DNA of 64,000 bases from Massilia putida (GTDB lineage: Bacteria; Pseudomonadota; Gammaproteobacteria; Burkholderiales; Burkholderiaceae_D), in contig NZ_CP019038.1 in assembly GCF_001941825.1 (NCBI RefSeq), positions 6,262,001 through 6,326,000 of the forward strand, written 5' to 3'. Below the pieces are notes generated by a model. The model had not been told where the DNA came from. It made no database searches and saw nothing but the letters and a program-made list of their open reading frames with translations. Positions within the stretch are counted from its first letter, which is position 1; each line of letters starts with the position of its first letter. This document shows, one piece after another, positions 24,331 through 64,000 of this stretch. The translations under genes were made by a program, and so were the position numbers.

Positions 24331-24849
24331 ATGCCCAAGAATGAAAGCGTGCAGAAACGCCTGCAGAAAGTGCGCGCGCCGCGCGTGCAGATGACGTACG
24401 ACGTCGAGATCGGCGACGCGATCGAGAACAAGGAGTTGCCGTTCGTGGTCGGTGTGCTGGGCGACTTCGGCACCGATCCCGACGCGCCCAAGAAACGTCT
24501 CAAGGACCGCAAATTCGTCAACGTCGATGCCGACAATTTCGACGAGGTGCTGGGTGGCGTGGCGCCGGCGACGAGCTTTCGCGTGCAGAACCACCTGTCG
24601 CCGGAAGGCGGCGAGTTCGCCGTGCAGCTGCAGTTCAAGCAGATGGACGACTTCCGCCCGGAGGCCGTCGTGCAGCAGGTGGCGCCGCTCAAGGGGCTGC
24701 TGGACGCCCGCGCCAAGCTGGCCGACCTGCGCAACAAGCTGGCCGGCAACGACAAGCTGGAGGACCTGTTGAACGACGTGCTGACCAACACGGAAAAACT
24801 GGGCAGCTTGCGCAAGGGCGGCGGCAAGCCGGGCAAGGAGGACGCATGA
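24331..24849 (+). CDS. tssB: TssB (VipA/ImpB) contractile sheath small subunit
   Basis: 172 aa. The N-terminus has the conserved RAPRVQMTYDVEIGDAIE and LPFVVGVLGDFG, followed by KFVNVDADNFDEVL and LQFKQMDDFRPEAVV, all typical of TssB. With TssC it forms the T6SS sheath that contracts to fire the Hcp tube and is recycled by TssH. The stop codon overlaps the tssC start (ATGA), which keeps subunit synthesis coupled. Confidence 0.96.
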   Translation: MPKNESVQKRLQKVRAPRVQMTYDVEIGDAIENKELPFVVGVLGDFGTDPDAPKKRLKDRKFVNVDADNFDEVLGGVAPATSFRVQNHLSPEGGEFAVQLQFKQMDDFRPEAVVQQVAPLKGLLDARAKLADLRNKLAGNDKLEDLLNDVLTNTEKLGSLRKGGGKPGKEDA

Positions 24850-26942: not shown

Positions 26943-27434
26943 ATGACAGCCTATCTTCCCGGCCTGCTGGACCGCCTGATGGGACAGCAGGCCCACCCCG
27001 GCCGTCCGGGGGCCGAGCAACTCAAGGACAACGTCGCGCGCGACCTGGAAGCCCTGCTGAACGCCCGCGCCGGCATGCCACCGGCAACCTTCGACGCCTA
27101 TCCGCTGGCGCGCGCCTCCATCCTCAACTACGGCCTGACGGACTTCGCCGCATTCTGCCTCTCCAGCAGCGAGGACCGGGCCGCGATCTGCGCCTGCCTC
27201 GAGGAGGCGATCGAGCGCCACGAGCCGCGCCTGAAAAACGTCAGCGCCGCGCTGGAAGACGAGCAGGGCGGCGTCAACCGCCTCAGGTTCGTGATCAACG
27301 CGACCCTACAGGCCGGCCCCGACGTCGAACCGGTCAATTTCAATGCCGTGCTGCAGCCATCCTCGCTGAACTACGCGATCAGCAGGGCCACCACACAAAG
27401 GACATCGACATGGATATCAACCTCAAGACCCTGA
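26943..27434 (+). CDS. tssE: TssE (GPW/gp25) T6SS baseplate protein
   Basis: 163 aa, with GGGAGCAG before the ATG. Conserved gp25-like features are a Leu-rich N-terminus (LPGLLDRLMG), SILNYGLTDFAAF, the EAIERHEPRL motif and RLRFVINATLQAGPDVEPVNFNAVL. TssE seeds sheath assembly at the baseplate. The last ~14 residues (after YAISRA) look unlike the family end. The reading frame overlaps tssH by 25 bp. In most T6SS loci tssF and tssG stand exactly here, between tssE and tssH, and they are missing. Confidence 0.88.
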   Translation: MTAYLPGLLDRLMGQQAHPGRPGAEQLKDNVARDLEALLNARAGMPPATFDAYPLARASILNYGLTDFAAFCLSSSEDRAAICACLEEAIERHEPRLKNVSAALEDEQGGVNRLRFVINATLQAGPDVEPVNFNAVLQPSSLNYAISRATTQRTSTWISTSRP

Positions 27435-31986: not shown

Positions 31987-32403
31987 ATGAGCGTTTCTGC
32001 ACAGGCTACGGGGTTCAACATCGGCGAAGCGGCGCGCGCGTCCGGCGTGACGGCCAAGATGGTGCGTCATTACGAGGCCATCGGCCTGCTGCCGCCGGCG
32101 CGACGCACGGAGGCCGGCTACCGGCTCTACGGCACGGACGACGTGCGCATGCTGCAATTCATCCATCGGGGTCGCGCGCTGGGTTTTTCGCTGGACCAGA
32201 TCGCCGATCTGCTGGCGCTGTGGCGCGACAAGCACCGCGCCAGCGCCGACGTGCGCCGCCTCGCGCTCGCACACATCGATGAACTGGACCGCAAGATCGA
32301 GGAGCTGGAAGCGATGAAGCGTACCCTGGCCTCGCTGGCCAGTTCCTGCCACGGCGACGCGCGCTCCGACTGCCCCATCCTGGACGACCTGGCGGCCGAC
32401 TAG
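31987..32403 (+). CDS. CueR-like MerR-family metal-responsive regulator
   Basis: 138 aa from the ATG at 31987 (GGAAGAG upstream). The N-terminal HTH_MerR domain reads NIGEAARASGVTAKMVRHYE and GYRLYGTDDVRMLQFI. A dimerisation helix follows (residues ~85-115), then the metal loop with Cys121 and Cys129, C-x7-C as in CueR. A Ser at position 87 in HRASAD matches the copper/silver type rather than zinc sensors. It would respond to Cu(I), Ag(I) or Au(I). No copper ATPase or chaperone gene is adjacent, and the only co-transcribed gene is an alpha/beta hydrolase. Its promoter is described at 31932. Confidence 0.85.
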   Translation: MSVSAQATGFNIGEAARASGVTAKMVRHYEAIGLLPPARRTEAGYRLYGTDDVRMLQFIHRGRALGFSLDQIADLLALWRDKHRASADVRRLALAHIDELDRKIEELEAMKRTLASLASSCHGDARSDCPILDDLAAD

Positions 32404-32407
32404 AGCC

Positions 32408-33295
32408 ATGCTCGTTCGTCTGTCGCCGTCCGCCTGCCTGATCGCGCTCGCCATGATCGTGCTGGTGGGCGCCGCCATCGTCTGGGCGGTCGGATCGAAG
32501 CTGATCGCGGTCGAGACGCGTCCCGTGGCGCTGCCCGCACTCGGCGCGGAGGACGTGGTGCTGCATCCGGCCCCGGACCAGCGCGTGGCCGGCTCCTTCC
32601 TGGCGGGCCGCGGCCGCGGCGCCGTGCTGCTGCTGCATGGTATCCACGGCGACCGCCGCGACATGGCCGCCCGGGCCCGCTTCCTGCAGGCGCAAGGCTA
32701 TGCCGTGCTGCTGATCGACTTGCCGGGCCAGGGCGCCAGCACGGCGTCGTTCGTGACGTTCGGGCTGCGCGAAGGGGAAGGCGTCCGGGCCGCGCTCGTG
32801 GAACTGCGGCGCCGGGCGCCGGGGCAGCGCATCGGCGTGATCGCCGTGTCGCTGGGGGCGGCGTCGCTCGTGTTGTGCCGCGACTGTCCGCCGGTCGACG
32901 CGGTGGTGCTGGAAGCGATGTATCCGACGATCGAGGAAGCCGTCGCGAACCGCCTGCGCATGCGGCTGGGGCCGGTGGGCGGGCCGCTGTCCGCGCTGCT
33001 GCTGTGGCAGTTGCCGCTGCGCCTGAACATCCGGTCCGATGCGCTGCGCCCGATCGCGCACATCGCGCAGTTGAATGCGCCGGTGCTGATCGCCGCCGGC
33101 GGCGCCGACCTGCACACGACCTTGCCCGAAACGCAGCGGTTGTTCGCGGCCGCCGCGCAGCCAAAGGACTTATGGGTGGTGGAGGGCGCCGCGCACGTGG
33201 ACCTGCACGCCTACGCGCCTGCGGACTATGAACGGCGCATCGGGGCGTTCCTCGCGCGGCACCTGGTGTCAATGCCGGTCGCCGGCGACCGGTAA
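32408..33295 (+). CDS. Alpha/beta hydrolase, membrane-anchored
   Basis: 295 aa, starting 5 bp after the regulator stop. The N-terminus is a hydrophobic anchor or signal (ACLIALAMIVLVGAAIVWAV). Hydrolase features are the oxyanion-region strand VLLLHGIHGDRRDM, VLLIDLPGQGAS, the nucleophile elbow IAVSLGAAS (Ser nucleophile; the first elbow Gly is Ala), an Asp-bearing AAGGADLHT and the catalytic His in GAAHVDLH. The substrate is unknown. Transcription together with a CueR-like regulator is unusual and may only reflect proximity. A bidirectional hairpin terminator follows. Confidence 0.78.
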   Translation: MLVRLSPSACLIALAMIVLVGAAIVWAVGSKLIAVETRPVALPALGAEDVVLHPAPDQRVAGSFLAGRGRGAVLLLHGIHGDRRDMAARARFLQAQGYAVLLIDLPGQGASTASFVTFGLREGEGVRAALVELRRRAPGQRIGVIAVSLGAASLVLCRDCPPVDAVVLEAMYPTIEEAVANRLRMRLGPVGGPLSALLLWQLPLRLNIRSDALRPIAHIAQLNAPVLIAAGGADLHTTLPETQRLFAAAAQPKDLWVVEGAAHVDLHAYAPADYERRIGAFLARHLVSMPVAGDR

Positions 33296-33376: not shown

Positions 33377-33461
33377 TGGTGCCCACGGAGGGACTCGAAC
33401 CCCCACACCTCGCGGCACATGGACCTGAACCATGCGCGTCTACCAATTCCGCCACGTGGGC
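33377..33461 (-). tRNA. tRNA-Leu(CAG), copy 4 of the array in transcription order
   Basis: Reverse-complement reading gives acceptor GCCCACG...CGTGGGC, a long class II variable arm, T-loop GGTTCGAGTCC, anticodon CAG and an encoded CCA end (33377-33379). Identical to the other three copies. Confidence 0.95.
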
Positions 33462-33501
33462 ATGTAAAACTTCAAACGTACAGCAACAACAGGGTAGCTT
33501 T

Positions 33502-33586
33502 TGGTGCCCACGGAGGGACTCGAACCCCCACACCTCGCGGCACATGGACCTGAACCATGCGCGTCTACCAATTCCGCCACGTGGGC
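33502..33586 (-). tRNA. tRNA-Leu(CAG), copy 3
   Basis: Same 85-nt sequence as its neighbours, including the encoded CCA. It starts exactly 125 bp from the copy at 33377, with an almost identical spacer. Confidence 0.95.
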
Positions 33587-33626
33587 ATGCAAAACTTCAA
33601 ACGTACAGCAACAACAAGGTAGCTTT

Positions 33627-33711
33627 TGGTGCCCACGGAGGGACTCGAACCCCCACACCTCGCGGCACATGGACCTGAACCATGCGCGTCTACCAATTCC
33701 GCCACGTGGGC
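33627..33711 (-). tRNA. tRNA-Leu(CAG), copy 2
   Basis: Same 85-nt sequence, again offset by 125 bp from the previous copy. The spacer differs by only two substitutions. Confidence 0.95.
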
Positions 33712-33779
33712 AATCTACCGCCACTACTCTTGTTTCCGCGCGGGCTCGTGGAGCCCACCCTACGCAAATGCTCGCCAGC

Positions 33780-33864
33780 TGGTGCCCACGGAGGGACTCG
33801 AACCCCCACACCTCGCGGCACATGGACCTGAACCATGCGCGTCTACCAATTCCGCCACGTGGGC
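33780..33864 (-). tRNA. tRNA-Leu(CAG), copy 1 (promoter-proximal)
   Basis: Same 85-nt gene, anticodon CAG, CCA encoded. The spacer to copy 2 (33712-33779) is different and longer, so this is probably the ancestral copy of the array. Confidence 0.95.
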
Positions 33865-38534: not shown

Positions 38535-39224
38535 ATGCAAGACGACATCCCGGGCAGCTTCGACCCGGCCTCCGACCTCGACCCCAACGAAATCCGCGTC
38601 CTGGGCGTGCTCGCCGAAAAAGAGGCGCTCACGCCCGACAATTACCCGATGTCGCTGAATGCGGTGATGAACGGCTGCAACCAGCTGTCCAGCCGCGATC
38701 CCGTGATGCAGTTGTCCGAAGACGTCGTCCACGACACCTTGCAGCGGCTCATGCAGCGCAAGCTCGTAAACGGCATCGCCCAGGCCGGCGCGCGCGTCAT
38801 CAAGTACGAGCACCGCATGCGCATCAAGTGGACGCTCGAGCAGGACAAGGTCGCCGTGCTGACGGTGCTGATGCTGCGCGGCCTGCAGACGGCCGGCGAG
38901 ATCCGCAGCCGCACGGGCCGCCTGCACGACTTCAAGTCGGTGGCCGAGGTGGAGAGCGCGCTGCAATTCCTGATCGACAAATATCCGCCGCTCGTCGCGC
39001 GCCTCGAGCGCGCGCCCGGCACCAAGGAATCCCGCTACGGGCATTTGCTGGGTGGTCCGATCGACGTCGCGAAAATGGACGCGGGCGGCAACGCCGCCGG
39101 CGCTTCGGGCGGCGGTTCGACCGGCGCCCGCGTGGCCCAGCTGGAGCAGGAAGTGGCCGCGCTGCGCAGCGAAGTCGACGAGCTCAAGGCGCAGTTCGCG
39201 GCGTTCCGTCAGCAGTTCGAGTAA
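38535..39224 (+). CDS. yceH: YceH family (DUF480) protein
   Basis: 229 aa. The DUF480 domain has two winged-helix repeats (LDPNEIRVLGVLAEKEALTPDNYPMSLNAVMNGCNQLSSRDPV; AVLTVLMLRGLQTAGEIRSRTGRLHDF). The C-terminus has a Gly-rich linker and a coiled coil (VAQLEQEVAALRSEVDELKAQFAAFRQQ). Function unknown in the family; DNA binding is plausible from the fold. Its last 41 bp overlap the end of the convergent secreted-protein gene. Confidence 0.9.
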   Translation: MQDDIPGSFDPASDLDPNEIRVLGVLAEKEALTPDNYPMSLNAVMNGCNQLSSRDPVMQLSEDVVHDTLQRLMQRKLVNGIAQAGARVIKYEHRMRIKWTLEQDKVAVLTVLMLRGLQTAGEIRSRTGRLHDFKSVAEVESALQFLIDKYPPLVARLERAPGTKESRYGHLLGGPIDVAKMDAGGNAAGASGGGSTGARVAQLEQEVAALRSEVDELKAQFAAFRQQFE

Positions 39225-39957: not shown

Positions 39958-40274
39958 GGTGCGGCTCCCTGTGGGTTTGCGGATTCGTCGGCGAGATCGA
40001 CGAGGGCAGGGGCGAGCGCGTGCTGCTCATCGAACGTGTCGATCCCGGCTGCGATGGCGCGGTACGAATGCAGCTCCGGATTCTTGATGGCATTCACGTG
40101 CACGACGCCTTCGCGGCTGGCGCCCGGCGCGACGTCGTCCTGGGCATGCGCGACGACGGCCGGCGCGGCTCGGAACAGCAGGGCCGCGCGCATCGTTCGG
40201 CCATCGATGCTTCCATTTTGCGCAGGCGTTTTCGCGTCCGTACAGCTGCCTGCCGGTACCAACAGATGGCGCAT
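39954..40274 (-). pseudogene. Truncated paralogue of the downstream secreted protein
   Basis: 106 codons. The segment VHVNAIKNPELHSYRAIAAG aligns with VHVAGITNPEMRSYRSVAAG of the next gene and is followed by another matching stretch (DTFDEQHALAPA against DAFDANRALAPN). The remaining ~200 residues of the paralogue are absent. The N-terminus is not a normal signal peptide; an internal ATG at 40193 gives a poor one (RAALLFRAAPAVVAHAQ). It begins 4 bp after the permease gene and overlaps the full-length paralogue by 4 bp. It is likely the remnant of a tandem duplication, though a translated short protein is possible. Confidence 0.6.
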
Positions 40275-40277
40275 CGC

Positions 40278-41294
40278 TCAGCCCTCATCACGCCAGCGGC
40301 GCATGCGGATCGCCGCGTACAGCATCGCGACGCCCAGCGCCACGCCGATCCAGGCATCGATACCTGCCAGCGACATGTACGACTGGGGCACGAGGGCGCT
40401 CATGTCGGCGCCGTTCTCGGCCGGGCGCATGCCCGCCGGACCGTGGCCCTGGAACGCGAACCAGATGCCGGGCACGATGCCTGCGAGGATGCGGGCGACG
40501 ACGTCGCTCGCGTAATGCGCCAGCAGCAGTGTCTGGCCGGAGAAATTCTCGAGCGCCGCGTTGATCCACTTGATGACGACCAGCGTGACGATCGGTGCAC
40601 CCACGGCCCACAGGAAGGGCTTCGACTTCGCCCAGCTCGACACGAGCATCAGCCAGCCCACGGTCGGCAGTGCCCATACGACGTACACCGGGAGCAGGGC
40701 GGCGAGGCGCAGCGGCGACAGGTACAGATCGGGCGACGCCAATAACGCGGCGAACAGGTTCAGGCCCTGCGTGCTGAGCACCATGCAGGCGATGAACAGC
40801 AGGGTCAGTGATGCGGCCATGGCCAGCGCGAGCGTGATCACGGGTGCCACGACCAGCGCGGTGACGGCCTTGGACACCACCGTCATCGGATCGGACACGG
40901 GCAGCGATTTCCAGAACAGGATGCTGCGGTCGCGGCGCTCGTCGTACAGGGCGCCCAGGCAGTAGAAGAACACGACGCCGGTCACAATCGCGAACAGTGG
41001 CGTCGCGGCGCCCAGGTACAGGCCCCTGGCGAGCATTCCGACGAGCATTCTTGTTTCATCGGGGAGGAGCGCGTCCAGGCGGGCGTGCCGGAGCGTCTGG
41101 CCGTTGATCGTCACGTGCGCCGGCAGGCCATGCTGCAAGATGCCGTAGGTGATGGTGCAGCCCAGCAGTACGACGAGCAGCGCCCCGACGATGAGCGGTG
41201 CCCAGAACATCGAGCCCTTGTGCTCCCAGAATTCGCGCCGCAGCAGCCATTTCATGGTGTCGGCACTTTTATTGGTGCTCATTTTCGTGTTCAT
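40278..41294 (-). CDS. ABC transporter permease (ABC-2 type)
   Basis: 338 aa with about six membrane segments (FWAPLIVGALLVVLLGCTITYGI, PLFAIVTGVVFFYCLGALY, VVAPVITLALAMAASLTLLFIACMVL, LAALLPVYVVWALPTVGWLMLV and others). YDERRDRSILFWKSLPVSDPMTVVSKAV after the second helix is typical of ABC-2 permeases of the YtrC/D or NosY kind. The start overlaps the ATPase gene stop by 4 bp. Together with the GntR regulator it forms a Ytr-like system; the substrate is unknown, often envelope-related or antibiotic response. Confidence 0.85.
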   Translation of the reverse strand: MNTKMSTNKSADTMKWLLRREFWEHKGSMFWAPLIVGALLVVLLGCTITYGILQHGLPAHVTINGQTLRHARLDALLPDETRMLVGMLARGLYLGAATPLFAIVTGVVFFYCLGALYDERRDRSILFWKSLPVSDPMTVVSKAVTALVVAPVITLALAMAASLTLLFIACMVLSTQGLNLFAALLASPDLYLSPLRLAALLPVYVVWALPTVGWLMLVSSWAKSKPFLWAVGAPIVTLVVIKWINAALENFSGQTLLLAHYASDVVARILAGIVPGIWFAFQGHGPAGMRPAENGADMSALVPQSYMSLAGIDAWIGVALGVAMLYAAIRMRRWRDEG

Positions 41295-50934: not shown

Positions 50935-51028
50935 GGAGGCGTGGCCGAGTGGCCGAAGGCACTTCCCTGCTAAGGAAGCATACGGGCTTAAACCTGTATC
51001 GTGGGTTCGAATCCCACCGCCTCCGCCA
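50935..51028 (+). tRNA. tRNA-Ser(GCT)
   Basis: Acceptor GGAGGCG...CGCCTCC, anticodon loop CTGCTAA (anticodon GCT), long class II variable arm, T-loop GGTTCGAATCC and encoded CCA. It is intact although an integrase gene lies 175 bp downstream. Confidence 0.96.
50997..51028 (+). other. Probable attachment site (attL) in the tRNA-Ser 3' end
   Basis: The T-arm and acceptor 3' half are the usual target of tyrosine integrases of this family, and the integrase gene points away from the tRNA immediately after it. The matching direct repeat (attR) is not seen downstream to 64000, so the exact core is not defined. Confidence 0.55.
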
Positions 51029-51108: not shown

Positions 51109-51203
51109 GTTTTCCGAAGCCCTCAAACCCAACAGTACAACACCGTGTCACACAGAGCTTGTGTAGGCAGTGGTGTAGGTACGAAACCGGTTGTGGAGGG
51201 ACG

Positions 51204-52418
51204 ATGCCTACAAATACCCTGACGGACCGTCAGTGCAAGAATGAAGTGGCGGGAGACAAGCCAAAGAAGCTGTTTGACGGCGGCGGCCTGCATCTCTACG
51301 TGTCGACGACCGGCTCGAAGACCTGGCGGCTCGCGTATCGCATCGACGGCCGGCCGCAAACGATGAGCTTCGGCGCCTATCCGGCGGTAACTCTGGCGGC
51401 TGCTCGGGCGCGGCGTGATGAGGTCAAGGCGATCCTGGCCGAAGGCGGCGATCCGATGGCGCCGCGGCGTGTTCAGCGCGCGGGCCTGACGCTCGAGCAG
51501 GCGTCGGCGGAATTCTGGGCAGGGCGGCGCGACATCTCGGAAAGCTACCGGACGAACGCCAAGCGCGCGATCGACATGCACCTCGTTCCCATCCTCGGCA
51601 ACCGGAACATCGGGAGCATTGAGCGGCAAGACCTGATGGATGCACTGCAGGTCATGAACGCTGCGGGCCTCGCTGTCTACGTGCGCAAGGTGCGCATGTG
51701 GATCGGGCAAGTGTTCGAATGGGCAGTCGAGAACGGTCACGCCAAGATCAACCCAGCAGCGCTGATCAATCCTCGCAACGCGTTCGCACGGGCCAAGGTC
51801 GAGCACTTCGCCTCGGTGGACCTGACCGAGGTTCCGGAGATGATGCAGCGGATCGCACTGGAGGACTCCGTGCAAAGCGTGCTGGCCTTCCGCCTGCTCG
51901 CGCTGACGTGGGTGAGGACTGGTGAGCTCAGGGCGATGCGGTTCAGCGAAATCGATGGTTCGACGTGGCGCATCCCGAAGGATCGCATGAAGAAGAACCG
52001 CGACCATCTGGTGCCGTTGTCGCGTCAGGCGGTGGACTTGCTCAAGGAACTGAAGGCGCGGTCAAGGGGAGGGGAGTTCGTATTCCCGGCAGAGCACCGC
52101 GACGACCGGCCCATGTCCGAGAATGCGATTCTCGCGCTGCTTGCGCGGATCGGCTATCGCGGTCGGATGACAGGGCACGGCTGGCGCACAATCGCCAGCA
52201 CCTGGGCGAATGAGAACGGCTACAACCGCGACGCCATCGAGCGACAGCTTGCTCACGCGCCCGACGACAAGATCCGCGCGGCGTATAACCGCGCGGAGTA
52301 CCTGCCGGAGCGCACGAAGATGCTGCAGGATTGGGCCGATTTTCTCGACTCATGTGAGCAGGTTGATGCCGGCCGCGCGCAAGGTGGACACGCGCCAACC
52401 CTTCGTGCGGTGGGATAG
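51204..52418 (+). CDS. Tyrosine-type site-specific integrase (P4-like)
   Basis: 404 aa from the ATG at 51204. The N-terminal DUF4102 arm-binding domain reads LTDRQCKNEVAGDKPKKLFDGGGLHLYV and RLAYRIDGRPQTMSFGAYPAVTLAAARA. A core-binding SAM-like domain follows, then the catalytic domain with Arg in WVRTGELRAMRFSEID, GHGWRTIAST (H-x-x-R), LAHAP and the nucleophile Tyr in AAYNRAEY. It integrates the element at tRNA-Ser. Its last 69 bp overlap the convergent excisionase-like gene, a common arrangement. Confidence 0.93.
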   Translation: MPTNTLTDRQCKNEVAGDKPKKLFDGGGLHLYVSTTGSKTWRLAYRIDGRPQTMSFGAYPAVTLAAARARRDEVKAILAEGGDPMAPRRVQRAGLTLEQASAEFWAGRRDISESYRTNAKRAIDMHLVPILGNRNIGSIERQDLMDALQVMNAAGLAVYVRKVRMWIGQVFEWAVENGHAKINPAALINPRNAFARAKVEHFASVDLTEVPEMMQRIALEDSVQSVLAFRLLALTWVRTGELRAMRFSEIDGSTWRIPKDRMKKNRDHLVPLSRQAVDLLKELKARSRGGEFVFPAEHRDDRPMSENAILALLARIGYRGRMTGHGWRTIASTWANENGYNRDAIERQLAHAPDDKIRAAYNRAEYLPERTKMLQDWADFLDSCEQVDAGRAQGGHAPTLRAVG

Positions 52419-55152: not shown

Positions 55153-56162
55153 CAGTCGCCTCCCTTCTCGCCCTGTGCGCTTGCCGGGACTGCTGGAAGC
55201 GGCATCCAGTGCGTCACGATGCCCTCGGTGACATAGCAGCTCGAATATTCGCCCCAGTTGTCGATGCATTCCAGCCATCCAGCCTTGATGTAGAACGTGT
55301 CGTCGTCTTCGTTATAATCGGTCTCGCAGTCGTCGTCGGTCGCCTCTATCTGGAACTTGTGCGCATACTTGGCTCGGATCATTCGTTGCTTGCCACGCGG
55401 CGTCATATAGACAGCCAAGCACTCTTTTGCAGGCAGGCGTTCGTCGACGCTGATCCACTGGTGCGGCGCCTCTGCGCCTGCTGCTTCCTTGGTGGCGAGA
55501 TTTCGGATTTCTTCTGCAAGTTCCTCCATTTCGCAGACCCATTCCCCGCCGTCGCCCGGATATTCCGTAGCTCCGGTGGTGTGGTCGTAGCTACCATGCT
55601 CATTGACATAGGCATCCACCTTCGTTTCGATCAGCTTCGCCGCCTCTTCCAGCGCAGTGCGACGAATCTCTGCCGCAGTCTGTTCGCTTACTGCGGCCTG
55701 TGTCGCTACTACGCCAGCATGTGTGCCGAGAAGGCGCTCGACTTCGGCGAATTTGACGTAGTCGCCTTGAATGTCTTCGCCCATTTCGTACTGGCTGACA
55801 GGCTCGTACCGCGTCAGTCCTTCTATCCCTGCCGCTGCGGGAGCGGGCGATACTGTCGGCGCCGCAGACTCAATGACTGGATTTGCGCCCATGAAGCCGA
55901 GAAGGTGCATGGCACACGAGCGGATCGTCTCTTGGAATTGATCGAGCTGCGCCTCCGACACGCCTGCGTAATGTTCGTGGCTGATGCACAGAACGCGACG
56001 GCCTTCAGCTTCGACCGTCACCGACCACGTCTCGGCAATGCCCAGGGCGTTGAATCTAGGCGCGTCGCTCCAGTCAACGGCCCTACCCGGGTGCTTGTCA
56101 TCGACGCGGCGCGCCGGCTTGCTATCATTCATGTCAGTATCCCGTCGAGGTTGGTTGTTCAT
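55152..56162 (-). CDS. DUF551-containing phage protein
   Basis: 336 aa. The C-terminus carries the DUF551 pattern, HQWISVDERLPAKECLAVYM to GIVTHWMPLPAVP. The middle has a coiled-coil-like acidic helix (EIRRTALEEAAKLIETKVDAYV). Two start codons are possible (56162 or 56132); the first overlaps the reverse transcriptase stop (ATGA), coupling the two genes. DUF551 proteins are typical of prophage early regions; function unknown. Confidence 0.75.
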   Translation of the reverse strand: MNNQPRRDTDMNDSKPARRVDDKHPGRAVDWSDAPRFNALGIAETWSVTVEAEGRRVLCISHEHYAGVSEAQLDQFQETIRSCAMHLLGFMGANPVIESAAPTVSPAPAAAGIEGLTRYEPVSQYEMGEDIQGDYVKFAEVERLLGTHAGVVATQAAVSEQTAAEIRRTALEEAAKLIETKVDAYVNEHGSYDHTTGATEYPGDGGEWVCEMEELAEEIRNLATKEAAGAEAPHQWISVDERLPAKECLAVYMTPRGKQRMIRAKYAHKFQIEATDDDCETDYNEDDDTFYIKAGWLECIDNWGEYSSCYVTEGIVTHWMPLPAVPASAQGEKGGD

Positions 56163-57361
56163 TTCGCTTTCCGATACGCTTTGGTGAATGTTTTGTTGAC
56201 GGCATGCCCACGGCGCAGGATGGTCAGCGCCGCCCGCGCTCGATCGGCATGGCTGCTATTTGCCTGACGCAGCAGTCCGAAATAACTGTTCGCTGCGGCG
56301 AATAGGTTGCCTGCATCCATCGTGCTCAGCCGTGCAACTGCCTGGCCGACCGTACGGCGCCGGGTCCTTGTGTGCCAAGGCTTGATCACATGGCCGACAA
56401 AATCAACGCCGCGCGCTACGGGCTGCAGAATTGTCTTCGTCGGATTCAAGCGCGCGCCGAGCCGCGCCGGCAGGAATGCGTCGATGCTCGTCAACGCCGC
56501 GTTCAGCCACTGCGGCGACTCGTGCAGCAGCACAAAGTCGTCGACGTAGCGCACGTAGTGCCGCGCGCGGACCTGGTGCTTTACATGCTGGTCCAACGCG
56601 TCGAGATAGATGTTGGCGAAAAACTGCGACGACAGGTTCCCGATGGGAAGGCCCAGGTGGGCGGCCTGCGATGCCAACTGCTTGTGCGGCGGCACCAGAT
56701 CAAGCAGACGCGGATCGCCGCGCAGTTCGAAATCTTCGCGTGGATCATGGAACAGGATCACGCCGGCCAACCACAGCCACCACGGCTCGGTGACGCGCGC
56801 GGCGATCTGCTCCCACAGCACGTTCTTGTCGATCGAGACGAAGAAGTTCGCCAAGTCGCACTTCAAGTACCAGACCGGCCGACTCCAGTTCTCGGATGCG
56901 CTGCGAACCTTTGCCTCGAGGCGACGCGCGGCGCATAGCGTTCCACGCCCAGGAATGCACGCACAGGTATCGCTGATGAACGAAGCGTAGAAGCGCGGCG
57001 CGATGCGGTTATACAGCAGGTGATGCACGATGCGATCGCGAAAGTCAGCCGCCCACACTTCGCGCGGCTTGGGTCGCGTGATCACGAAGCAGATCGACCG
57101 CCCCGGGCGATAACTGCCCTCGATCAGTTCATCTCGCAGGAGCGCGAGATTGCTCTCCTGGCTCTGCTCGAATGCCGCAGCGCTGGCGGAATTACGCTTG
57201 GTATGGCGGCAGTCCAGGTAGGCTTGTACAAGTTCGGCTAAAGAAAAGTCAGCATGGTGGCGACCGGGATAATCTGCGGACGGCGCGGGCGCGCAACTCG
57301 GCCGACTTGTTGTTGTTGTTCTGGTTGCCGTTGTTGAAGTTCTGGTTCCAGGCATATTCAT
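56159..57361 (-). CDS. Reverse transcriptase of a diversity-generating retroelement
   Basis: About 400 aa. RT motifs in order: FVITRPKPREVWAADFRDRIVHHLL, VWYLKCDLANFFVSIDKNVLW (first catalytic Asp), GLPIGNLSSQFFANIYLDALDQ, then RYVDDFVLLHE (catalytic YVDD). The SQ in IGNLSSQ, where group II intron RTs have QG, is the DGR hallmark. No maturase, endonuclease or fused domain. The N-terminus is uncertain: between the TR and FSLAELVQAYLDCRH there is no in-frame ATG, GTG or TTG. The nearest ATGs (57361 and 57355) lie inside the TR, and the frame stays open up to 57586. It copies TR RNA with adenine errors into the VRs. The stop overlaps the DUF551 gene start. Confidence 0.93.
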   Translation of the reverse strand: MNMPGTRTSTTATRTTTTSRPSCAPAPSADYPGRHHADFSLAELVQAYLDCRHTKRNSASAAAFEQSQESNLALLRDELIEGSYRPGRSICFVITRPKPREVWAADFRDRIVHHLLYNRIAPRFYASFISDTCACIPGRGTLCAARRLEAKVRSASENWSRPVWYLKCDLANFFVSIDKNVLWEQIAARVTEPWWLWLAGVILFHDPREDFELRGDPRLLDLVPPHKQLASQAAHLGLPIGNLSSQFFANIYLDALDQHVKHQVRARHYVRYVDDFVLLHESPQWLNAALTSIDAFLPARLGARLNPTKTILQPVARGVDFVGHVIKPWHTRTRRRTVGQAVARLSTMDAGNLFAAANSYFGLLRQANSSHADRARAALTILRRGHAVNKTFTKAYRKAK

Positions 57362-57378
57362 CGTTGGAAGCGTGCTGC
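57271..57378 (-). repeat. DGR template repeat (TR)
   Basis: 108 bp that align without gaps to VR1 and VR2. The sense (minus) strand has nine AAC codons in the target frame (translation NDEYAWNQNFNNGNQNNNNK), the classic mutable AAY-rich template. It lies between avd and the RT gene, as in the Bordetella phage BPP-1 cassette. Confidence 0.93.
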
Positions 57379-57552
57379 GTTTATTCGTGCTATCTACGTC
57401 GCCCCGCCGAAGGTCGCATTGACCGATCAGTGGGGAAACTGCGCCAGACGGGCCCGAACTATGTCGGGCTGTTTCTGTGATGCGCATGGCGGTGGCCTTT
57501 TGAGCCAGCGGCACGACCAGATTAAAAAATCGCTCAGTCATGGGAGCCTTGA

Positions 57553-57906
57553 CTACCGTGAAGCGGGCGATGCGGAACGGCGCCAACCACTTGCCTGCTT
57601 GCCGATGCTGGTCGTAAGTTCGACCGCGGCGGCGTACTGCTTCGTCGAGATCAGGCGCTTATCGCGCGAGAGACGAATCAGCAGTTCTGCCACCTGCAGG
57701 CGCTCGACGAGATCCTGCAGGTGCGCCGCTTTGTCCCGGGCCACATTGGCCCGGTAGATCAAGGTCACGATCTCGACAACTTCGTCCCGGACCTTCCCTC
57801 CGATCGATGCCTTGAAATCCCGAGGCATGTTCTTGGCGAGGTCCGTAACGACGTCGAGAAGGTCATATGCGACCTTGTAGATCGGCAGCTGGGTGTGGAG
57901 TGCCAT
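57553..57906 (-). CDS. avd: Avd-like four-helix-bundle accessory protein of the DGR
   Basis: 117 aa, all-helical and basic. LPIYKVAYDLLDVVTDLAKNMPRDF, IVTLIYRANVARDKAAHLQDLVERLQVAELLIRL and RLISTKQYAAAVELTTSIGKQASGW match the four-helix-bundle family that contains Bordetella phage bAvd, which binds the RT and nucleic acid and is required for mutagenic retrohoming. Order target - avd - TR - RT is as in BPP-1. Ribosome binding site weak, so it is probably translated through coupling with the target genes. Confidence 0.88.
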   Translation of the reverse strand: MALHTQLPIYKVAYDLLDVVTDLAKNMPRDFKASIGGKVRDEVVEIVTLIYRANVARDKAAHLQDLVERLQVAELLIRLSRDKRLISTKQYAAAVELTTSIGKQASGWRRSASPASR

Positions 57907-57925
57907 GCTGAAAAAAATGATTAAA

Positions 57926-58384
57926 TTATTGAATCGTTAATCTGCGGACGGCGCGGGCGCGCAACTCGGCCGACTTGTAGTAGTAGTTCTGGTAGCCGTA
58001 GTAGAAGTACTGGGTCCAGGCAAAAGCATCGCAGGAAGCGTGCTGCTCCCCGGACCAGTAGTAGCGCTCTTCGAACTGGCTTTTCAGGTTGGCGAACAAG
58101 AGCGCCTGCTCGCGCCGCGTCGGTAGCTCGCCACCTGCTTTGGCCGCGAATTCCTTTGCTTGATCCCACGTCACATCGTCGACGTCGCCGGGCAGCAGGA
58201 TCAGATGGTGCGAAGGCGCTCCATCGTCGCCGAGAATGATTCCCGCGTAGTGTTCGCCCGGCTGCAGTTCGATCTGGATGCCCGTGACGGCGACGATTCG
58301 CGGCGCCTGAGCCTTGAATGCGGCGATCATGTTGCTGACGTTCTGGTGTGCGGCTTCGATTTCTTCGAGGGTAATGCTGCTCAT
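57926..58384 (-). CDS. DGR target protein 1, DUF1566/C-type-lectin fold
   Basis: 152 aa. The N-terminus is helical (ITLEEIEAAHQNVSNMIAAF). The C-terminal DUF1566 domain (DDVTWDQAKEFAAKAGGELPTRREQALLF, ERYYWSGEQHAS) ends in the variable region, whose residues CDAFAWTQYFYYGYQNYYYK are followed by the invariant SAELRARAVRR. This fold displays variable residues on a ligand-binding surface. No signal peptide, membrane helix or obvious tail-fibre domain is present. VR1 ends 10 bp before the stop codon. It is co-transcribed with target 2 upstream and avd downstream. Confidence 0.88.
   Translation of the reverse strand: MSSITLEEIEAAHQNVSNMIAAFKAQAPRIVAVTGIQIELQPGEHYAGIILGDDGAPSHHLILLPGDVDDVTWDQAKEFAAKAGGELPTRREQALLFANLKSQFEERYYWSGEQHASCDAFAWTQYFYYGYQNYYYKSAELRARAVRRLTIQ
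57939..58046 (-). repeat. DGR variable repeat 1 (VR1)
   Basis: Ungapped 108-bp match to the TR with 13 substitutions, every one at a position that is A in the TR sense strand. The first 40 bp from the 3' (sense) end are identical to the TR and act as the candidate IMH region. Confidence 0.95.
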
Positions 58385-58411
58385 CAGTGACTCCGAAAAA
58401 TGGATGAATGA

Positions 58412-59020
58412 TTAAATTGCGAATCTGCGGACGGCGCGGGCGCGCAACTCGGCCGACTTGTAGTTGTAGCTCTGGTTGCCGTAGTTGAAGTACTGGTACC
58501 AGGCATAAGCATCGTCGGAAGCGTGCTGCGTGCTCGACCAGTACCATTCGTTGACGAACGCCTGTGCGCCGCCTTCGACGAAATCCGGCGCCGCGGTCTG
58601 CGCCGGCAGGCCCGCGGTGTAGGCGTGGGTTGGCGGCACGGCCGATGCGTTCACGCCGGACCGGCCGTACAGGGAGTTCGTGCGCGCGGTTGGCTTCAGG
58701 TTGCGATAAATGATCTCCAACTCGTCCTGGCTCGGGATGTACCAGTCCGCGTGGCCGCCGATATTCAGGCCCAGCGCCCATTCCGCCAGTTCGCTGCCAG
58801 CCGCCGCCATCGCCTTCGTGTTCTGCATACCATCGCAATAGCTGTCGGCGCCTTCTGCGCGGTCTTCGGAGTCGAGCCAAGCGGCATCATTGCGCTCGCC
58901 TTCGTCCTTCGGCGCGACGATCAACGCATACGGCCCGCCAGCGATCATGATGCGACCGGCGTAGAAGCCTCCTTCGAGCGGAGCGCCCAGCGCGGCAGGA
59001 ATTTCGTTTTGGTGGTTCAT
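58412..59020 (-). CDS. DGR target protein 2, DUF1566/C-type-lectin fold
   Basis: 202 aa, with AAGGAG 6 bases before the ATG. DUF1566 body: GGFYAGRIMIAGGPYALIVAPK, HADWYIPSQDELEIIYRNLKP, then NEWYWSSTQHAS. The variable segment is DDAYAWYQYFNYGNQSYNYK and the conserved end SAELRARAVRRFAI. It is longer than target 1 but ends in the same module, so both use one TR. No secretion signal. It may be a surface or tail-tip adhesin carried by another structural protein, or a cytoplasmic binding protein; the sequence does not decide. Confidence 0.88.
   Translation of the reverse strand: MNHQNEIPAALGAPLEGGFYAGRIMIAGGPYALIVAPKDEGERNDAAWLDSEDRAEGADSYCDGMQNTKAMAAAGSELAEWALGLNIGGHADWYIPSQDELEIIYRNLKPTARTNSLYGRSGVNASAVPPTHAYTAGLPAQTAAPDFVEGGAQAFVNEWYWSSTQHASDDAYAWYQYFNYGNQSYNYKSAELRARAVRRFAI
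58422..58529 (-). repeat. DGR variable repeat 2 (VR2)
   Basis: Ungapped match to the TR with 9 substitutions, all at TR adenines (sense strand). The set of changed sites differs from VR1, so the two VRs were diversified independently. Confidence 0.95.
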
Positions 59021-59034
59021 GATTTCTCCTTGTT

Positions 59035-59214
59035 TTACTTCGGTTCGTCGTTGGTCTTGGGTTTCACGGTTTCGCCGCTGTTGATCGCATCTAGGTCTTC
59101 GTAGTAGCGGCGCGATCCTCGATTCGTTCGGTAGGCTTGCATCGCCTTGCGGTCTTCCGGGGTGAGTCCCTGTGCGCTCTCACCAAAGTTGCGGCGGATA
59201 CGGCGCTTTCTCAT
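59035..59214 (-). CDS. Small basic protein, 59 aa
   Basis: Starts at the ATG overlapping the rdgC stop (ATGA): MRKRRIRRNFGESAQGLTPEDRKAMQAYRT, ending GETVKPKTNDEPK. Strongly charged, no known domain. It lies between the rdgC fragment and DGR target 2, 14 bp before the latter. Confidence 0.6.
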   Translation of the reverse strand: MRKRRIRRNFGESAQGLTPEDRKAMQAYRTNRGSRRYYEDLDAINSGETVKPKTNDEPK

Positions 59215-59563
59215 GCCTTGGCCTCGCCGCCGAGCGCCTCGACGAGGTCCGTCAGCATCCGGTTGTACTCGCCCGTCATCAGGGCGAAGTCGTTGTCGAA
59301 GCGCTCGACGTCGCTGCAAGGGGGCCCGTCGTTTTCCTTGATGACGTCCAGCGGCTTGACGCTCTTGATCGACAGGCCGTCCGTCAGGACGAACGAGATT
59401 CGGCTGTTCCAAGTCATGGCAAGGCGCACGCACTGTTTGCCGCGGGCGATGTGGTCACGCATTTCGCCGACTTCGAGCGTGTGACGTTTGTAGCCAACCT
59501 GGGCCTTGCTTTCGCCAGTCGCGCGCAGCGTCGCGTCTTGGTCGATCATGAAGTTGAAGGGTG
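59211..59563 (-). pseudogene. rdgC: rdgC, C-terminal fragment cut by an IS21-family element
   Basis: About 117 codons match the C-terminus of RdgC: ESKAQVGYKRHTLEVGEMRDHIARGKQCVRLAMTWNSRISFVLTDGLSIKSVKPLDVIKE, then FALMTGEYNRMLTDLVEALGGE. RdgC is a ring-shaped DNA-binding protein that limits RecA and is often carried by prophages. The N-terminal ~180 residues are missing; upstream the frame enters the IS terminal repeats, and no rdgC N-terminus appears on the far side of the IS. Confidence 0.82.
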
Positions 59564-59757
59564 CTTTGCGTATTCCAGACCAAACTGGACACCCATTCCA
59601 CGGCAAACTGGACACTGATTCCGCGGCAAACTGGACACCCGTTCCAGCGCAAACTGGACACTGATTCCGCTCCAAACTGGACAGTTTGAAGCGGGCCGAA
59701 GGGGCTGGCGGCAAGGGATAACTGTGGCACTCTCGCGGATTTTTCCGGGAGGGTTGC

Positions 59758-61308
59758 TTGACCAACAAAAGGTTATCCATGCGCAAAATCCATGAAGTCC
59801 TGCGGCTGCATTTCGAGCACGGCCGCTCCAAGCGGGAGATCGCCCGCATCATCAACGCCTCGCCGACCACCGTGTCGGACTACCTGGCCCGCGCCAAGGT
59901 GGCAGGCTTGCCGTATCCGATGCCGGCGGATCTTGACGACGCCGCGCTTGAGTGGCGGCTGTTTCCGCCGAGCGAGCCATCGTCAGTGAAGCGTCCGGCG
60001 CCGAACTGGCTGACGGTGCACAACGAGCTGCGCCGCAAGGGCGTCACGCTCGAGCTGCTGTGGCAGGAGTACAAGGTCGAGCAGGCCGACGGCCTGCAGT
60101 ACAGCGCCTTCTGCGACCACTACCGCCGCTGGCGCCAGCAGCTGACGCTGTCGATGCGCCAGACCCACACGCCGGGCGAACGGCTGTTCGTCGACTATGC
60201 CGGCCAGACCGTCGGCGTCACCGACGGCGCCACCGGCGAAATCCGCGACGCGCAGATCTTTGTCGCCGTACTGGGCGCGTCGAACTACACCTATCTCGAA
60301 GCCACCTGGAGCCAGCAGCTGCCTGACTGGATTGGCAGCCACGTGCGCGCGCTCGAGTTCTTCGGCGGCTGCACGGAGCTGTGGGTACCGGACAACCTGC
60401 GCAGCGGCGTGACCAAGGCGTCGCGCTACGAGCCGGACCTCAACCCGACCTACCACGACCTGGCGGAGCACTACGGCGTGGCCGTGCTGCCGGCACGTGC
60501 CCGACGTCCGAAAGATAAAGCGAAGGTCGAGAACGGCGTGCTGGTGATCACCCGTTGGGTGCTGGCGCGGCTGCGCCACCAGCGCTTCTTCAGCCTCAAC
60601 GAGCTCAATCGCGCACTGCGGACCCTGCTGGCCGATGTGAACCAGCGGCCCTTCAAGAAGCTGCCGGGCTGCCGCGCCAGCGCCTTTGCGGAGATGGACC
60701 AGCCGGCCCTGCGTCCGCTGCCGCAACGGCGCTACGAGTACGCCGAATGGAAGGTGGCCCGGGTGGGCATCGACTATCACGTCGAGATCGACGGGCACTA
60801 CTACTCGGTACCATGCCAGCACGCGCGCGCCCAGGTGGACGTGCGCGTCACCAAGATGACCGTCGAAATCTTCCAGCGCGGCCAGCGCATCGCCAGCCAC
60901 GCCTACTGCACCGTCAAGGGCCGCCATACGACGATCGACGCGCACATGCCCGCGGCGCACCGTGAAGTCGCCGGCTGGAACGCCACCACGCTGACGACGC
61001 GGGCCGCTGCGATCGGGCCGCGTTGCGCGGTGCTGGTTGAGCGGCTGCTGCATCAGCGGCGTCATCCCCAGCAGGCTTACCGCAGCTGCCTCGGCGTGCT
61101 GTCGTTGGGCCAGCGATATGGCGTCGAACGCCTGGAGGCGGCCTGCGCCCACGCCCTCAAGCACGGTGCGGTGAGCTGGAAGAGCGTGCAGGCCATCCTC
61201 AAGAACGGACTCGACCAGCAACCGCAGGGCGTGCAGCGCACGCTCGACTTGCCCGAGCACGAGAACCTGCGCGGCGCCGCCTACTACCAATCGCATCAGC
61301 TGCACTGA
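59758..61308 (+). CDS. istA: IstA transposase (IS21 family)
   Basis: 516 aa from the TTG at 59758 (GGGAGGG upstream) or 509 aa from the ATG at 59779. The N-terminal HTH (MRKIHEVLRLHFEHGRSKREIARIINASPTTVSDYLARA) is followed by a DDE integrase core (RLFVDYAGQTVGV, ELWVPDNLRSGV, ARARRPKDKAKVEN with the catalytic Glu) and a C-terminal Mu-type beta-barrel (YHVEIDGHYYSVPCQH). Complete. Confidence 0.95.
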   Translation: MTNKRLSMRKIHEVLRLHFEHGRSKREIARIINASPTTVSDYLARAKVAGLPYPMPADLDDAALEWRLFPPSEPSSVKRPAPNWLTVHNELRRKGVTLELLWQEYKVEQADGLQYSAFCDHYRRWRQQLTLSMRQTHTPGERLFVDYAGQTVGVTDGATGEIRDAQIFVAVLGASNYTYLEATWSQQLPDWIGSHVRALEFFGGCTELWVPDNLRSGVTKASRYEPDLNPTYHDLAEHYGVAVLPARARRPKDKAKVENGVLVITRWVLARLRHQRFFSLNELNRALRTLLADVNQRPFKKLPGCRASAFAEMDQPALRPLPQRRYEYAEWKVARVGIDYHVEIDGHYYSVPCQHARAQVDVRVTKMTVEIFQRGQRIASHAYCTVKGRHTTIDAHMPAAHREVAGWNATTLTTRAAAIGPRCAVLVERLLHQRRHPQQAYRSCLGVLSLGQRYGVERLEAACAHALKHGAVSWKSVQAILKNGLDQQPQGVQRTLDLPEHENLRGAAYYQSHQLH

Positions 61309-61399
61309 CATCGCGAATAAACGATATAAACAATTTATGCATTGAACGCGGAAGCTGCGCCCCCCCCGGGCGCGCTCTGCAACCATGAAAGGACGTACC

Positions 61400-62152
61400 A
61401 TGTTGCATCATCCCACCCACGACAAACTGACGCGCCTGAAGCTGTTTGGAATGGCGCGCGCCTTTGCCGAGCAGAGCGCACTGGACCTGGACCATCTGAC
61501 TTTCGAAGAGCGTCTCGGCCTGCTGGTAGACCATGAAGTGACCGAGCGCGACGGGAAGGCACTGGCCCTGCGCCTACAGCGCGCCAGGCTCAAACCCAAC
61601 ACAGCCGCCGAGGACATCGACTACCGCCACCCGCGTGGCCTCGACAAGGCGCTGTTTCAGCGCTTGCTGGCCGGGCAATGGCTGACTGACAGGCAGAACG
61701 TGCTGCTGACCGGCCCCACCGGCGTGGGCAAGACCTGGCTCGCATGCGCGCTGGCACACTAGGCCTGCCGCCAGGGCTACAGCGCGTACTACGTGCGCTT
61801 GCCGCGCCTGCTCGACGAACTGGGCATTGGCCGTGCCGACGGGCGCTATGGCAAGCTGCTCAAGCAACTGGCCAGGATCGACACGCTCGTGATCGACGAC
61901 TGGGGCCTGGCTGTGCTCGACGATGCCCACCGGCGCGACCTGCTGGAAGTGCTCGACGACCGCCACGGAACCCGCTCGACCATCGTGACCAGCCAGCTGC
62001 CCATCGAGCACTGGCATCCCGCCATCGGCGACCCGACCCTGGCCGACGCCATCCTTGACCGGCTCGTCCACAACGCCCACCAGCTCAACTTGAAAGGAGA
62101 TTCCCTGCGAAAAAAACGGGCCAATTTGACAAGACCAGCTCATCAGGAGTAA
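61400..62152 (+). pseudogene. istB: IstB ATPase of IS21, interrupted by an in-frame amber codon
   Basis: Start ATG at 61400 after AAGGACG. Walker A LLTGPTGVGKTWLACALAH is followed at once by TAG (61760-61762), then the same frame goes on [17 protein letters not shown] with Walker B LVIDDWGL, to [20 protein letters not shown] and a stop at 62152. Intact IstB proteins have Lys or another residue at this site. IstB is the AAA+ helper needed for transposition, so the element is probably immobile unless helped in trans. Confidence 0.85.
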
Positions 62153-62283
62153 AACCCGAACCTCGACCCCGTGCCGTCACGCCCCGAGTGTCCAGTTTGG
62201 CCTGGAACAGGTGTCCAGTTTGCGCTGGAATGCGTGTCCAGTTTGCGGCGGAACGGGTGTCCAGTTTCGGCGGAATACGCAAC

Positions 62284-64000
62284 GAAGCCCGCACGCTGCT
62301 GCCGACCATGGCCGCGACGCGCGCCGGTTTCCAGCGCCTGGAGCAGGAACTGGTCGGCAGCCTGGTACAGGAAAAGGTCGGCAACGTGCTGGCTGGCATT
62401 GCGACCCAAGCCCAATACGCGATCGATCTTGTCGTGCGCAATCTATACGAGCGGACAGCCGATATCGGCTTTCTTGCCACCGACAGGGAACTCTGCTCGT
62501 TCGCGGCCGGGCAGGCGGATGACGTGCATGCCGTGCGGCGCCGCCTGCGCGCCTACCGCAGCAAGTACACCGTGTACGACGACATCCTGATCCTCGATAC
62601 GCACGGGCGCATGCTGGCGCGTATTGACGAGACTCATCCGCTCGCCATCAGCAGCGATGCCCTGGTCGCGCAGTCGCTGGCGAGCCCGCATTATGTCGAG
62701 ACCTTCCGCGCCAGCGACTTGCGGCCGGATAAGACCCGGGCACTGATCTACTCGCGCCGGATGCTGCATCCCGACAGCGGCGTTCCGATCGGCGTGTTGT
62801 GCTTGTGCTTCAACTTCGAGGAAGAGATGGCGGGCATCTTCCGCTCCCTGGCCGACGAAGACGGGCGTACGCTGCTACTGCTGCTCGATGGCGACGGGCG
62901 TGTGATCGCGAGTGCCGATCCGGACTGGGTGCGCGAGGACAGTCGCGTTCCGCTCAACCTGGACGGCGAGGCTCGCTTGTTATTGCACTGCGGCCGTGAA
63001 TACTTGGTGTCCACCCAGCCGGCCGCCGGATACCAGGGCTACAAGGGACCGCCCGGCTGGCACGGGCAGGTGATGACGCCGGTCGACGTGGCGTTCCGGC
63101 GTCGGCCACGCGCGGTGCTCGACCACATACCGGCGGCCGTGGCCGAGGGTTTGCTGACTCACGCGCGCTCGTTCTGCCCGCCGTTGTTCGATATCATCAC
63201 CGCGGCCGACACGGTGCGGCGCGTGGTCTGGAACGGCCAAGTCGCCACGGCCGGCTGCGTGGGTGATGTGCACAAGCTCAAGACGGTGCTCGCCCAGGTC
63301 GGCGAGACAGGTGCGCGCAGCAACGAATTGTTCGGCCAGTCGATCGGCGACCTATACGAGACGGCACTCGCCTCGCACTTGCGCGACGCCGAATCCGTAG
63401 CGCGCCTGCTGGTCGACCTGCTGGACCGCAACCTGTATGAGCGCTCGGACGATTGCCGGTGGTGGGCACTGACACCCGAACTGCGCCACGCTCTGACCGA
63501 GCCCGAGCAGGACTTCGAGACGCGCGAGCACCTGGGCGAGATCCTCGACTACATCAATGGCTTGTACACGGTGTACACCCGGCTGTTCGTCTACGACAGC
63601 CAGGGCCGCATCCTTGTCTCGAGCAGCCGCGATGGCGCGGCCAGCATGGCCGGCGAGCGCATCGACGAGGACACGCTTGCCGCGGTCCTGGCGCTGCGCG
63701 GCGAGCAGCAGTATCACGTGACGCCGTTCCGTCCCGATCCACTGTACGATGGACGGCCGACCTACGTCTACCACGCGGCGATCCGCGATCCGGGCATGGA
63801 CGCCGGCGGCGTGGTCGGCGGTATCGGCATCGTATTCGACGCCGAGGCCGAATTCAGCGCGATGCTGAAGGGGGCCCTGGGCGACACGGACAACGCAAGC
63901 GCACTGTTCGTCGACCGCGGCGGCCGGGTCATCGCCAGCACCGACCGCACGCGCCCCGTCGGAGCGCGAATCGAACTCGATCCGCAGTTGCTGGCACTGG
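62284..64000 (+). CDS. Tandem cache-like sensory protein, 5' end truncated at the IS, 3' end outside window
   Basis: More than 570 open codons. Two similar modules: LVQEKVGNVLAGIATQAQYAIDLVVRNLYERTADIGFLA and, later, SHLRDAESVARLLVDLLDRNLYERSDDCRWWALT. Each is followed by YTVY(D/T)..., a sensor-like strand pair (LILDTHGRMLARI; FVYDSQGRILVSSS) and cache-type beta strands (GVPIGVLCLCFNFEEEM; GGVVGGIGIVFDAEAEF). It resembles chemotaxis-linked cache proteins of Burkholderiales. No start codon with a ribosome binding site is visible. The frame reaches back into the IS end; the first ATG is at 62308, so at least some N-terminal residues seem lost. Confidence 0.65.

Follow-up and report, generated by a model that had tools for sequence, protein, structure and literature searches.

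A complete diversity-generating retroelement (DGR) resides in a 64,000-nucleotide stretch of the Massilia putida genome (contig NZ_CP019038.1; hereafter the window). Two target genes, a gene for the accessory variability determinant (Avd), a template repeat (TR) and a reverse transcriptase (RT) gene occupy positions 56159-59020 of its minus strand, in the order target 2, target 1, avd, TR, RT; every part on the list of an earlier note on this DNA, and their order, was recovered. The DGR very probably belongs to a phage lineage in which a structured RNA of the Rfam family RT-15 abuts the 5' end of the TR and the reading frame of the RT runs out of the TR. The observations at the base of this reading are the parts and their order, differences between the TR and the variable repeats (VRs) that fall on adenines only, the presence of RT-15, the continuity of one frame from the TR through a linker to the RT core, and the truncation of the element that carries the cassette. 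The reading is built on sequence comparison, and the steps of translation, protein function and complementary DNA (cDNA) synthesis discussed below are predictions.

The TR and the two VRs were anchored on their common 3' end and aligned without gaps over 108 nucleotides (nt). Thirteen sites of VR1 and nine of VR2 depart from the TR, all of them at TR adenines (13/13 and 9/9), and none of the 75 other positions is changed in either repeat (150 VR positions in all). The probability that every change would fall on an adenine by chance is 2.8e-8 for VR1 and 9.9e-6 for VR2. The TR, VR1 and VR2 were the only copies of the repeat found across the genome (7.52 Mb, three contigs), with no additional VR elsewhere. 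The changes in the window are mostly A to T (16 of 22), with many Asn codons becoming Tyr codons, unlike the commonest change across all VRs examined, which is A to G. Both VRs lie, as in other DGRs, at the 3' ends of target genes with a predicted C-type-lectin fold. The two targets match Lcl_C (PF07603), target 1 below and target 2 above the Pfam cut-off; the sequence match of target 2 to a solved structure was at chance level only (E 0.63).

The window was compared with related loci in a set of 92, made up of the window itself, five genome loci, six phage records and the best 80 of 560 confirmed viral contigs. Seven control DGR phages were hand-picked among the 30 listed of 113 phage records. 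A TR/VR pair is present in 89 of the 92 loci, with at most five VRs per locus; several loci (L055, L067, L037, L040, L045 and others) have three to five VRs per TR, two of the five in L067 being short.

The identity of the RT was established in several ways. Its open reading frame (ORF) matches PHROG 1423, reverse transcriptase, with an E value of 4.9e-116. In a tree of 26 RTs, which sampled nine of the 92 lineage loci and 10 of the 15 fetched group II and retron-family loci, the nine lineage RTs grouped with those of the seven controls (support 100/99), and the six retron-family and four group II RTs stood apart; the program warned of long branches in this tree, and two of the six retron-family RTs scored above the curated cut-off. 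The best relative among solved structures is 8ub7 (E 2.1e-45; runner-up 8.3e-12), which we take to be a DGR RT. The best NCBIfam match is the group II family TIGR04416, at 83.8 bits against a cut-off of 300, and the NCBIfam retron match is weak, at 40.6 bits against 235. A retron or group II origin, the outcome that the earlier note had named as fatal to its proposal, is ruled out by the tree, the sub-cut-off NCBIfam scores and the match to the solved structure. Assignment to a defence RT, for which PADLOC gave matches in 74 families (best 'RT', E 2.2e-37), is overruled by the Avd gene and the TR/VR pairs. The Avd protein matches bAvd (PF22296) above cut-off, with an E value of 8.2e-16, and PHROG 3206, 'Avd protein of DGR'; against NCBIfam DivGenRetAVD it reached an E value of 7e-17, yet its 61.6 bits lie below the cut-off of 80. 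The RT, the Avd, the TR/VR pairs and the fold of the targets agree with the DGR identity first proposed.

The 3' end of RT-15 meets the 5' end of the TR in the window (57378), and RT-15 was found in all 40 relatives scanned, of 91. Because circularity had to be avoided, 300 genomes of the order were also searched with the RNA alone. Six loci scored above cut-off, one in M. putida and five elsewhere, and all six carry an RT of the lineage; three weaker matches do not. The consensus fold drawn from 30 sequences has two-sided changes in 24 of its 46 predicted pairs. RT-15 above the gathering score was absent from all seven control phages. An Rfam RNA was recognised in two of these, in both cases 3' of the TR and between TR and RT: Phage_DGR in the BPP-1-like phage and RT-14 in Bacillus phage BalMu-1 (L115). 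The BalMu-1 RNA lies at 2274-2417, shortly after the DGR TR, and RT-14 thus resembles a DGR template RNA as well. The Rfam table lists RT-15 as 'Gene; sRNA' with no DGR label; RT-15 is also annotated beside the RT in phage Cruim01. The family was reportedly named by Weinberg et al.; the terms 'RT-15 RNA', 'RT-15 motif' and 'RF03018' were not found in the literature searched, from which we do not claim absence from print. An ATCTG motif of RT-15 (57517-57523) and CAGAT at the TR 3' end (57271-57279) are complementary, a possible closure of the template loop; both sides are almost invariant, so that there is little covariation to read.

The RT ORF does not begin after the TR but extends through it to 57586, a correction to the earlier note. 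The TR is read in frame +1 relative to the frame of the VRs. In-frame ATG codons of the window lie at 57541 and 57487, within RT-15, and at 57361 and 57355, within the TR; between the TR and the RT core of the window there is no ATG, GTG or TTG. Between TR and core, stops number five among the 4497 codons of the RT frame; the other two frames have 80 (4427 codons) and 76 (4460 codons). These counts cover 89 of the 92 loci (L070 and L105 have no VRs, near a contig end, and L093 has an insertion). The exact TR-end anchor GTCCGCAG is present in 83 of the 89, and in all 83 the distance from TR end to core equals 1 modulo 3, with six lengths represented (46, 49, 52, 55, 61 and 67 nt). Furthermore, gap runs in the linker alignment are multiples of three in 89 of 90 cases (gap runs and start codons were analyzed in 90 of the 92 loci, without L070 and L093). 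Locus L093 is a natural exception, in which matches to a cytosine methylase in two frames (3875-5001) separate the TR from the RT; there the RT frame has ATG codons of its own at -69, -48 and -42 from the core. The control nearest the lineage in the tree, L116, which sits on a long branch, likewise has its own ATG codons shortly before the RT core.

Several observations weigh against this reading and limit its reach. Only 269 of the 539 gap runs in RT-15 are multiples of three. Compared with the linker, this phase suggests that the TR end and the linker behave as RT coding sequence and RT-15 behaves as RNA, and coding behaviour throughout the lineage appears to be limited to the TR 3' end and the linker. 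Not every relative keeps the conserved RT-15 ATG in phase; 68 of 90 loci do, and translation through the whole TR may accordingly not extend to all of them. The RT frame is open through the TR also in three of the seven controls (L114, L118 and L119), which rules out this feature as a mark of the lineage by itself; in six controls, L114 and L119 included, an in-frame ATG stands between TR and RT, and only phage ACA1 (L118) lacks one. In favour of the reading, an in-frame ATG lies upstream of the core in all 90 loci. A usable RT-15 ATG is present in 63, of which 49 have an extra ATG in the TR or linker, and all 27 loci that have no usable RT-15 ATG possess an ATG in the TR or linker; the Fisher p of 0.008 for this table ignores the relatedness of the loci. 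Against it, finally, ATG, GTG or TTG follows the TR in 40 of the 89 lineage loci, solely at -9 or -12 in a conserved motif in 32 of them and further up in eight. Annotations of the RT start also disagree among the phages of the lineage (L026, L027, L028, L029 and L030): the start is placed in RT-15 in Burkholderia phage Magia, in the TR in Cruim01, after the TR in Haboob and LPPA56 and in the core in QDWS.

The start codons that follow the TR in these 40 loci would also be expected of an ordinary DGR of the BPP-1 type, with an RT that starts after the TR, a scaffold lying 3' within the RT coding region, targets that serve host attachment, and an RT-15 that is an unrelated leader or attenuator. 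Such an account would explain the gene order shared with BPP-1 and the raised conservation at fourfold sites in RT codons 1-10 (0.553 versus 0.444 overall; 81 of the 92 RTs, near-copies removed), and it would suit the suggestion by the authors of the Magia announcement (PMC7883833) that the DGR may alter host range. However, 49 of the 89 loci, the window included, have no ATG, GTG or TTG after the TR, 85 have no ATG there, and the length of the linker preserves the RT frame. Conservation at fourfold sites drops to 0.34 in codons 11-20 and is highest in codons 221-230 (0.619), a profile with no sign of a longer 3' RNA element within the RT coding sequence. RT-15 above cut-off was always accompanied by an RT of the lineage in the reciprocal search, and the VRs of Magia lie outside its tail genes. 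Overall, we regard the ordinary arrangement as improbable and a lineage with RT-15 against the TR and a coding TR-RT junction as the better description.

Mutagenic retrohoming is established for BPP-1, the DGR of which has a C-type-lectin target and an Avd. The closest counterpart among our controls, the BPP-1-like phage vB_BbrP_003 (L114), shares with the window the order target-avd-TR-RT, adenine-only TR/VR differences and an RT of the DGR group, together with an RT frame open through the TR. They differ in that L114 has the Rfam Phage_DGR RNA 3' of the TR, whereas RT-15 of the lineage lies 5' of it, and in that the in-frame ATG between TR and RT of L114 is its annotated RT start, whereas the linker of the window is coding and offers no such start. 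Unlike BPP-1, moreover, the window has two targets and no tail gene beside them. PMC12875486 describes a folded spacer between TR and brt in BPP-1 that recruits the complex and primes cDNA synthesis; in place of a structured non-coding spacer, the window has a 50-nt linker read in the RT frame. Consequently, the 'BPP-1 layout' claimed for this DNA holds for the order of the genes, and fails for the side of the TR on which the RNA lies, for the non-coding spacer, for the position of the TR relative to the RT frame and for the company of a tail gene.

Magia (MT701587) belongs to the same lineage as the window. Its RT is 65% identical to that of the window, and it has RT-15, an Avd and a TR within the annotated RT gene; unlike the window, it is a complete phage, and it carries three VRs, where its announcement (PMC7883833) names two targets. 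Precedents for the arrangement in print that we found are DiGReF group 3 and a statement on the ACA phages. PMC3521204 (section 13) describes a DGR case in which the TR overlaps the RT ORF, which here is lineage-wide, frame-tested and coupled to RT-15. In PMC10612066, the TR of Pseudoalteromonas phages ACA1 and ACA2 is said to be translated into an extension at the RT N-terminus, and our data for ACA1 (L118, 2201-3466), with the TR inside the RT ORF as in the lineage, are in keeping with this. The TR of ACA1 looks, by eye, to be read in the frame of its own target, whereas that of the lineage is shifted by +1 against the VR frame, and ACA1 has no RT-15, carries a single antireceptor target beside tail genes and sits on another branch in the RT tree. 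As far as the literature searched extends, what is new is that the whole lineage couples a 5' RT-15 and a coding TR-RT junction with several small targets that were not found among tail genes.

By analogy with BPP-1, the RT and Avd would copy the TR RNA with errors at adenines, and the resulting cDNA would replace VR1 or VR2 at the 3' ends of the lectin-like genes by mutagenic retrohoming. RT-15 would be the 5' portion of the template RNA, scaffolding it as the 3' spacer does in BPP-1. Translation of the RT would start at 57487, the RT-15 ATG, or at one of the ATG codons within the TR; a single RNA would then serve as both RT message and mutagenesis template, two uses that may compete. Since the RT-15 ATG overlaps predicted helices, such a competition between folding and translation is suggested. 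A further step, which we put forward tentatively and consider doubtful, is that RT-15 scaffolds, from the 5' side, DGR RNAs of a class of their own, the transcript being alternately folded as template or translated through the template into the RT.

Differences outside adenines between the TR of the window and the TRs of related elements are mirrored by the VRs of each element. This holds for every listed site in L020, L035, L036, L037, L038 and L040, and for all but one in L033. Across 169 VRs, changes occur at 2193 of 5087 TR-adenine sites and at 176 of 10968 other sites, a bias that is partly built in because the VRs of relatives were found by an adenine-only criterion; four of the 169 have more than five mismatches outside adenines. 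A more direct view is offered by L078 and L079, which have identical RT cores and TRs and differ by 20 mismatches in 2643 collinear bases. One VR contains 14 of these, all 14 at TR adenines, and five of the remaining six fall within its final 50 bases, counted along the collinear stretch. Since these two loci differ mostly at TR adenines of one VR, the lineage likely hypermutates in nature. They are the informative pair among 10 near-identical pairs: five have identical VRs and flanks, three have diverged flanks and one has no comparable VR. The recent activity proposed in the earlier note is backed by the adenine-only differences, by the mirroring of TR changes and by this pair; for the strain itself, it is the adenine-only pattern that is observed.

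Table 1. Features of the DGR cassette and its surroundings in the window.
Feature	Position	Strand	Remarks
RT ORF, DGR reverse transcriptase	56159..57586	-	carries IGNLSSQ and YVDD motifs
Conserved RT core, 353 amino acids (aa)	56159-57220	-	within RT ORF
TR-to-RT-core linker, 50 nt	57221..57270	-	read in RT frame
TR, 108 nt with 33 A	57271..57378	-	within RT reading frame
RT-15 structured RNA, Rfam RF03018	57378..57572	-	173.9 bits versus gathering score 82
avd, accessory variability determinant, 117 aa	57553..57906	-	bAvd PF22296, PHROG 3206
Target 1, 152 aa, predicted C-type-lectin fold	57926..58384	-	Lcl_C match below cut-off
VR1	57939..58046	-	13 differences from TR, all at TR adenines
Target 2, 202 aa, predicted C-type-lectin fold	58412..59020	-	Lcl_C match above cut-off
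VR2	58422..58529	-	9 differences from TR, all at TR adenines
rdgC fragment, C-terminal, Pfam positions 185-298 of 298	59211..59561	-	cut at IS21 element
IS21-type element	59567..62281	+	boundaries by eye
istA	59758-61308		within IS21-type element
IstB_IS21 match	61385-61759		within IS21-type element
Tyrosine integrase, adjoins tRNA-Ser	51159..52418	+	
tRNA-Ser(gct), presumed attachment site	50935..51028	+	

The cassette lies between an integrase at tRNA-Ser and a fragment of rdgC that ends at an IS21-type insertion sequence (Table 1). A full-length rdgC ORF stands at this place in the relatives L022, L032, L034 and L038. Where 4.5 kb or more of upstream sequence was available (67 relatives), nine have rdgC there, which rules out a general link between rdgC and the DGR. 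The genome holds five further full-length copies of the IS21-type element and two partial pieces; four of the full-length copies are nearly identical and one, on contig C2, is at 92%. Target-site duplications were seen by eye at four of these five, and none was seen at the copy in the window. The genome contains the exact 29-mer of the tRNA-Ser 3' end a single time. To the right of the IS21-type element, over 20 kb, 10 of the 30 listed ORFs were scanned, and these have host-type domains. The first gene there adjoins the IS21-type element and is sensor-like, with dCache and CheW domains (62282-64000 in the window; 189-2756 in L004); it is possibly truncated at its 5' end. Elsewhere in the window, four tRNA-Leu(cag) genes stand in tandem on the minus strand (33377-33864).

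Because rdgC is cut, the target-site duplication is missing, the tRNA 3' end is single and host genes follow to the right, the element is best read as a truncated prophage arm, and the IS21-type element probably drove the truncation. The tRNA-Ser-integrated element of the earlier note is consequently retained as regards the integrase and the tRNA-Ser, and abandoned as regards its being intact. The upstream arm of the prophage is gone, and expression in this strain may have been lost for that reason, which counts against the reading favoured here. The same features would fit a stranded relic, a cassette intact but silent in this strain after an IS21-linked rearrangement took away the remainder of the prophage, upstream transcription included, with an adenine-only pattern of older date; the search of 62 genomes of the genus, in which the RT of the lineage appeared in the M. 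putida genome only, is consistent with it. Against a relic stand the DGR genes, RT-15, the TR and both VRs, all undamaged by sequence, and the absence of any change outside adenines in the 150 VR positions. We give the relic somewhat less than an even chance.

Whatever the state of the cassette, the targets of the lineage are small. Those that are untruncated measure 112-334 aa (n=153, median 197), and for 159 of the 164 VRs that reach 80 nt or more, the frame predicted from the TR is indeed open. A Pfam scan of 10 targets, two of them from the window, found only Lcl_C, with FGE-sulfatase below cut-off in three. No tail gene was recognised in the truncated element of the window. Magia has three VRs (38813-38902, 32822-32911 and 32336-32425), none of which has a mismatch outside adenines. 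All three VRs are outside tail genes, and the putative tail fibre gene (19360-21288) has no VR. The integrase (27246-28271) and the immunity repressor (40023-40367) of Magia flank its TR and VRs, which stand among recombination genes; about 5 kb separates the RT from the lysis genes (23634-25324). In the flanks fetched for the control DGRs (2.5 kb), six of seven have an annotated tail or lysis gene; L120 has none there, and in L116 a recombinase is also present.

These patterns suggest that the targets would be accessory proteins that bind ligands and are expressed with the early or integrase arm, and not tail fibres. Alternatively, they could be receptor-binding accessories that are attached to the virion and encoded away from the tail operon, in which case the DGR would still switch host tropism. 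According to PMC8144416, annotations as tail proteins predominate among viral DGR targets, and the predicted C-type-lectin fold would suit such a role; the small size of the targets, their Pfam content and the presence of VRs in three genes of Magia other than the tail fibre gene argue against it. Receptor-binding accessories on the virion fall, in our judgement, a little below even odds.

The lineage described here ties an Rfam RNA that had no DGR label to a group of DGRs, and comparison of its members indicates that the TR is part of the RT reading frame, so that it is probably translated besides being copied. Since the model of priming in BPP-1 rests on a 3' spacer and none of that type was found here, the way in which cDNA synthesis starts in this lineage becomes a direct question. 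Reading phage DGRs by default as diversifiers of tail fibres is also called into question, given that the variable proteins are small and, in Magia, encoded away from tail genes. Should the transcript alternate between folded template and RT message, these phages would possess a built-in hypermutation switch with which to diversify lectin proteins of the early arm that are not part of the tail.

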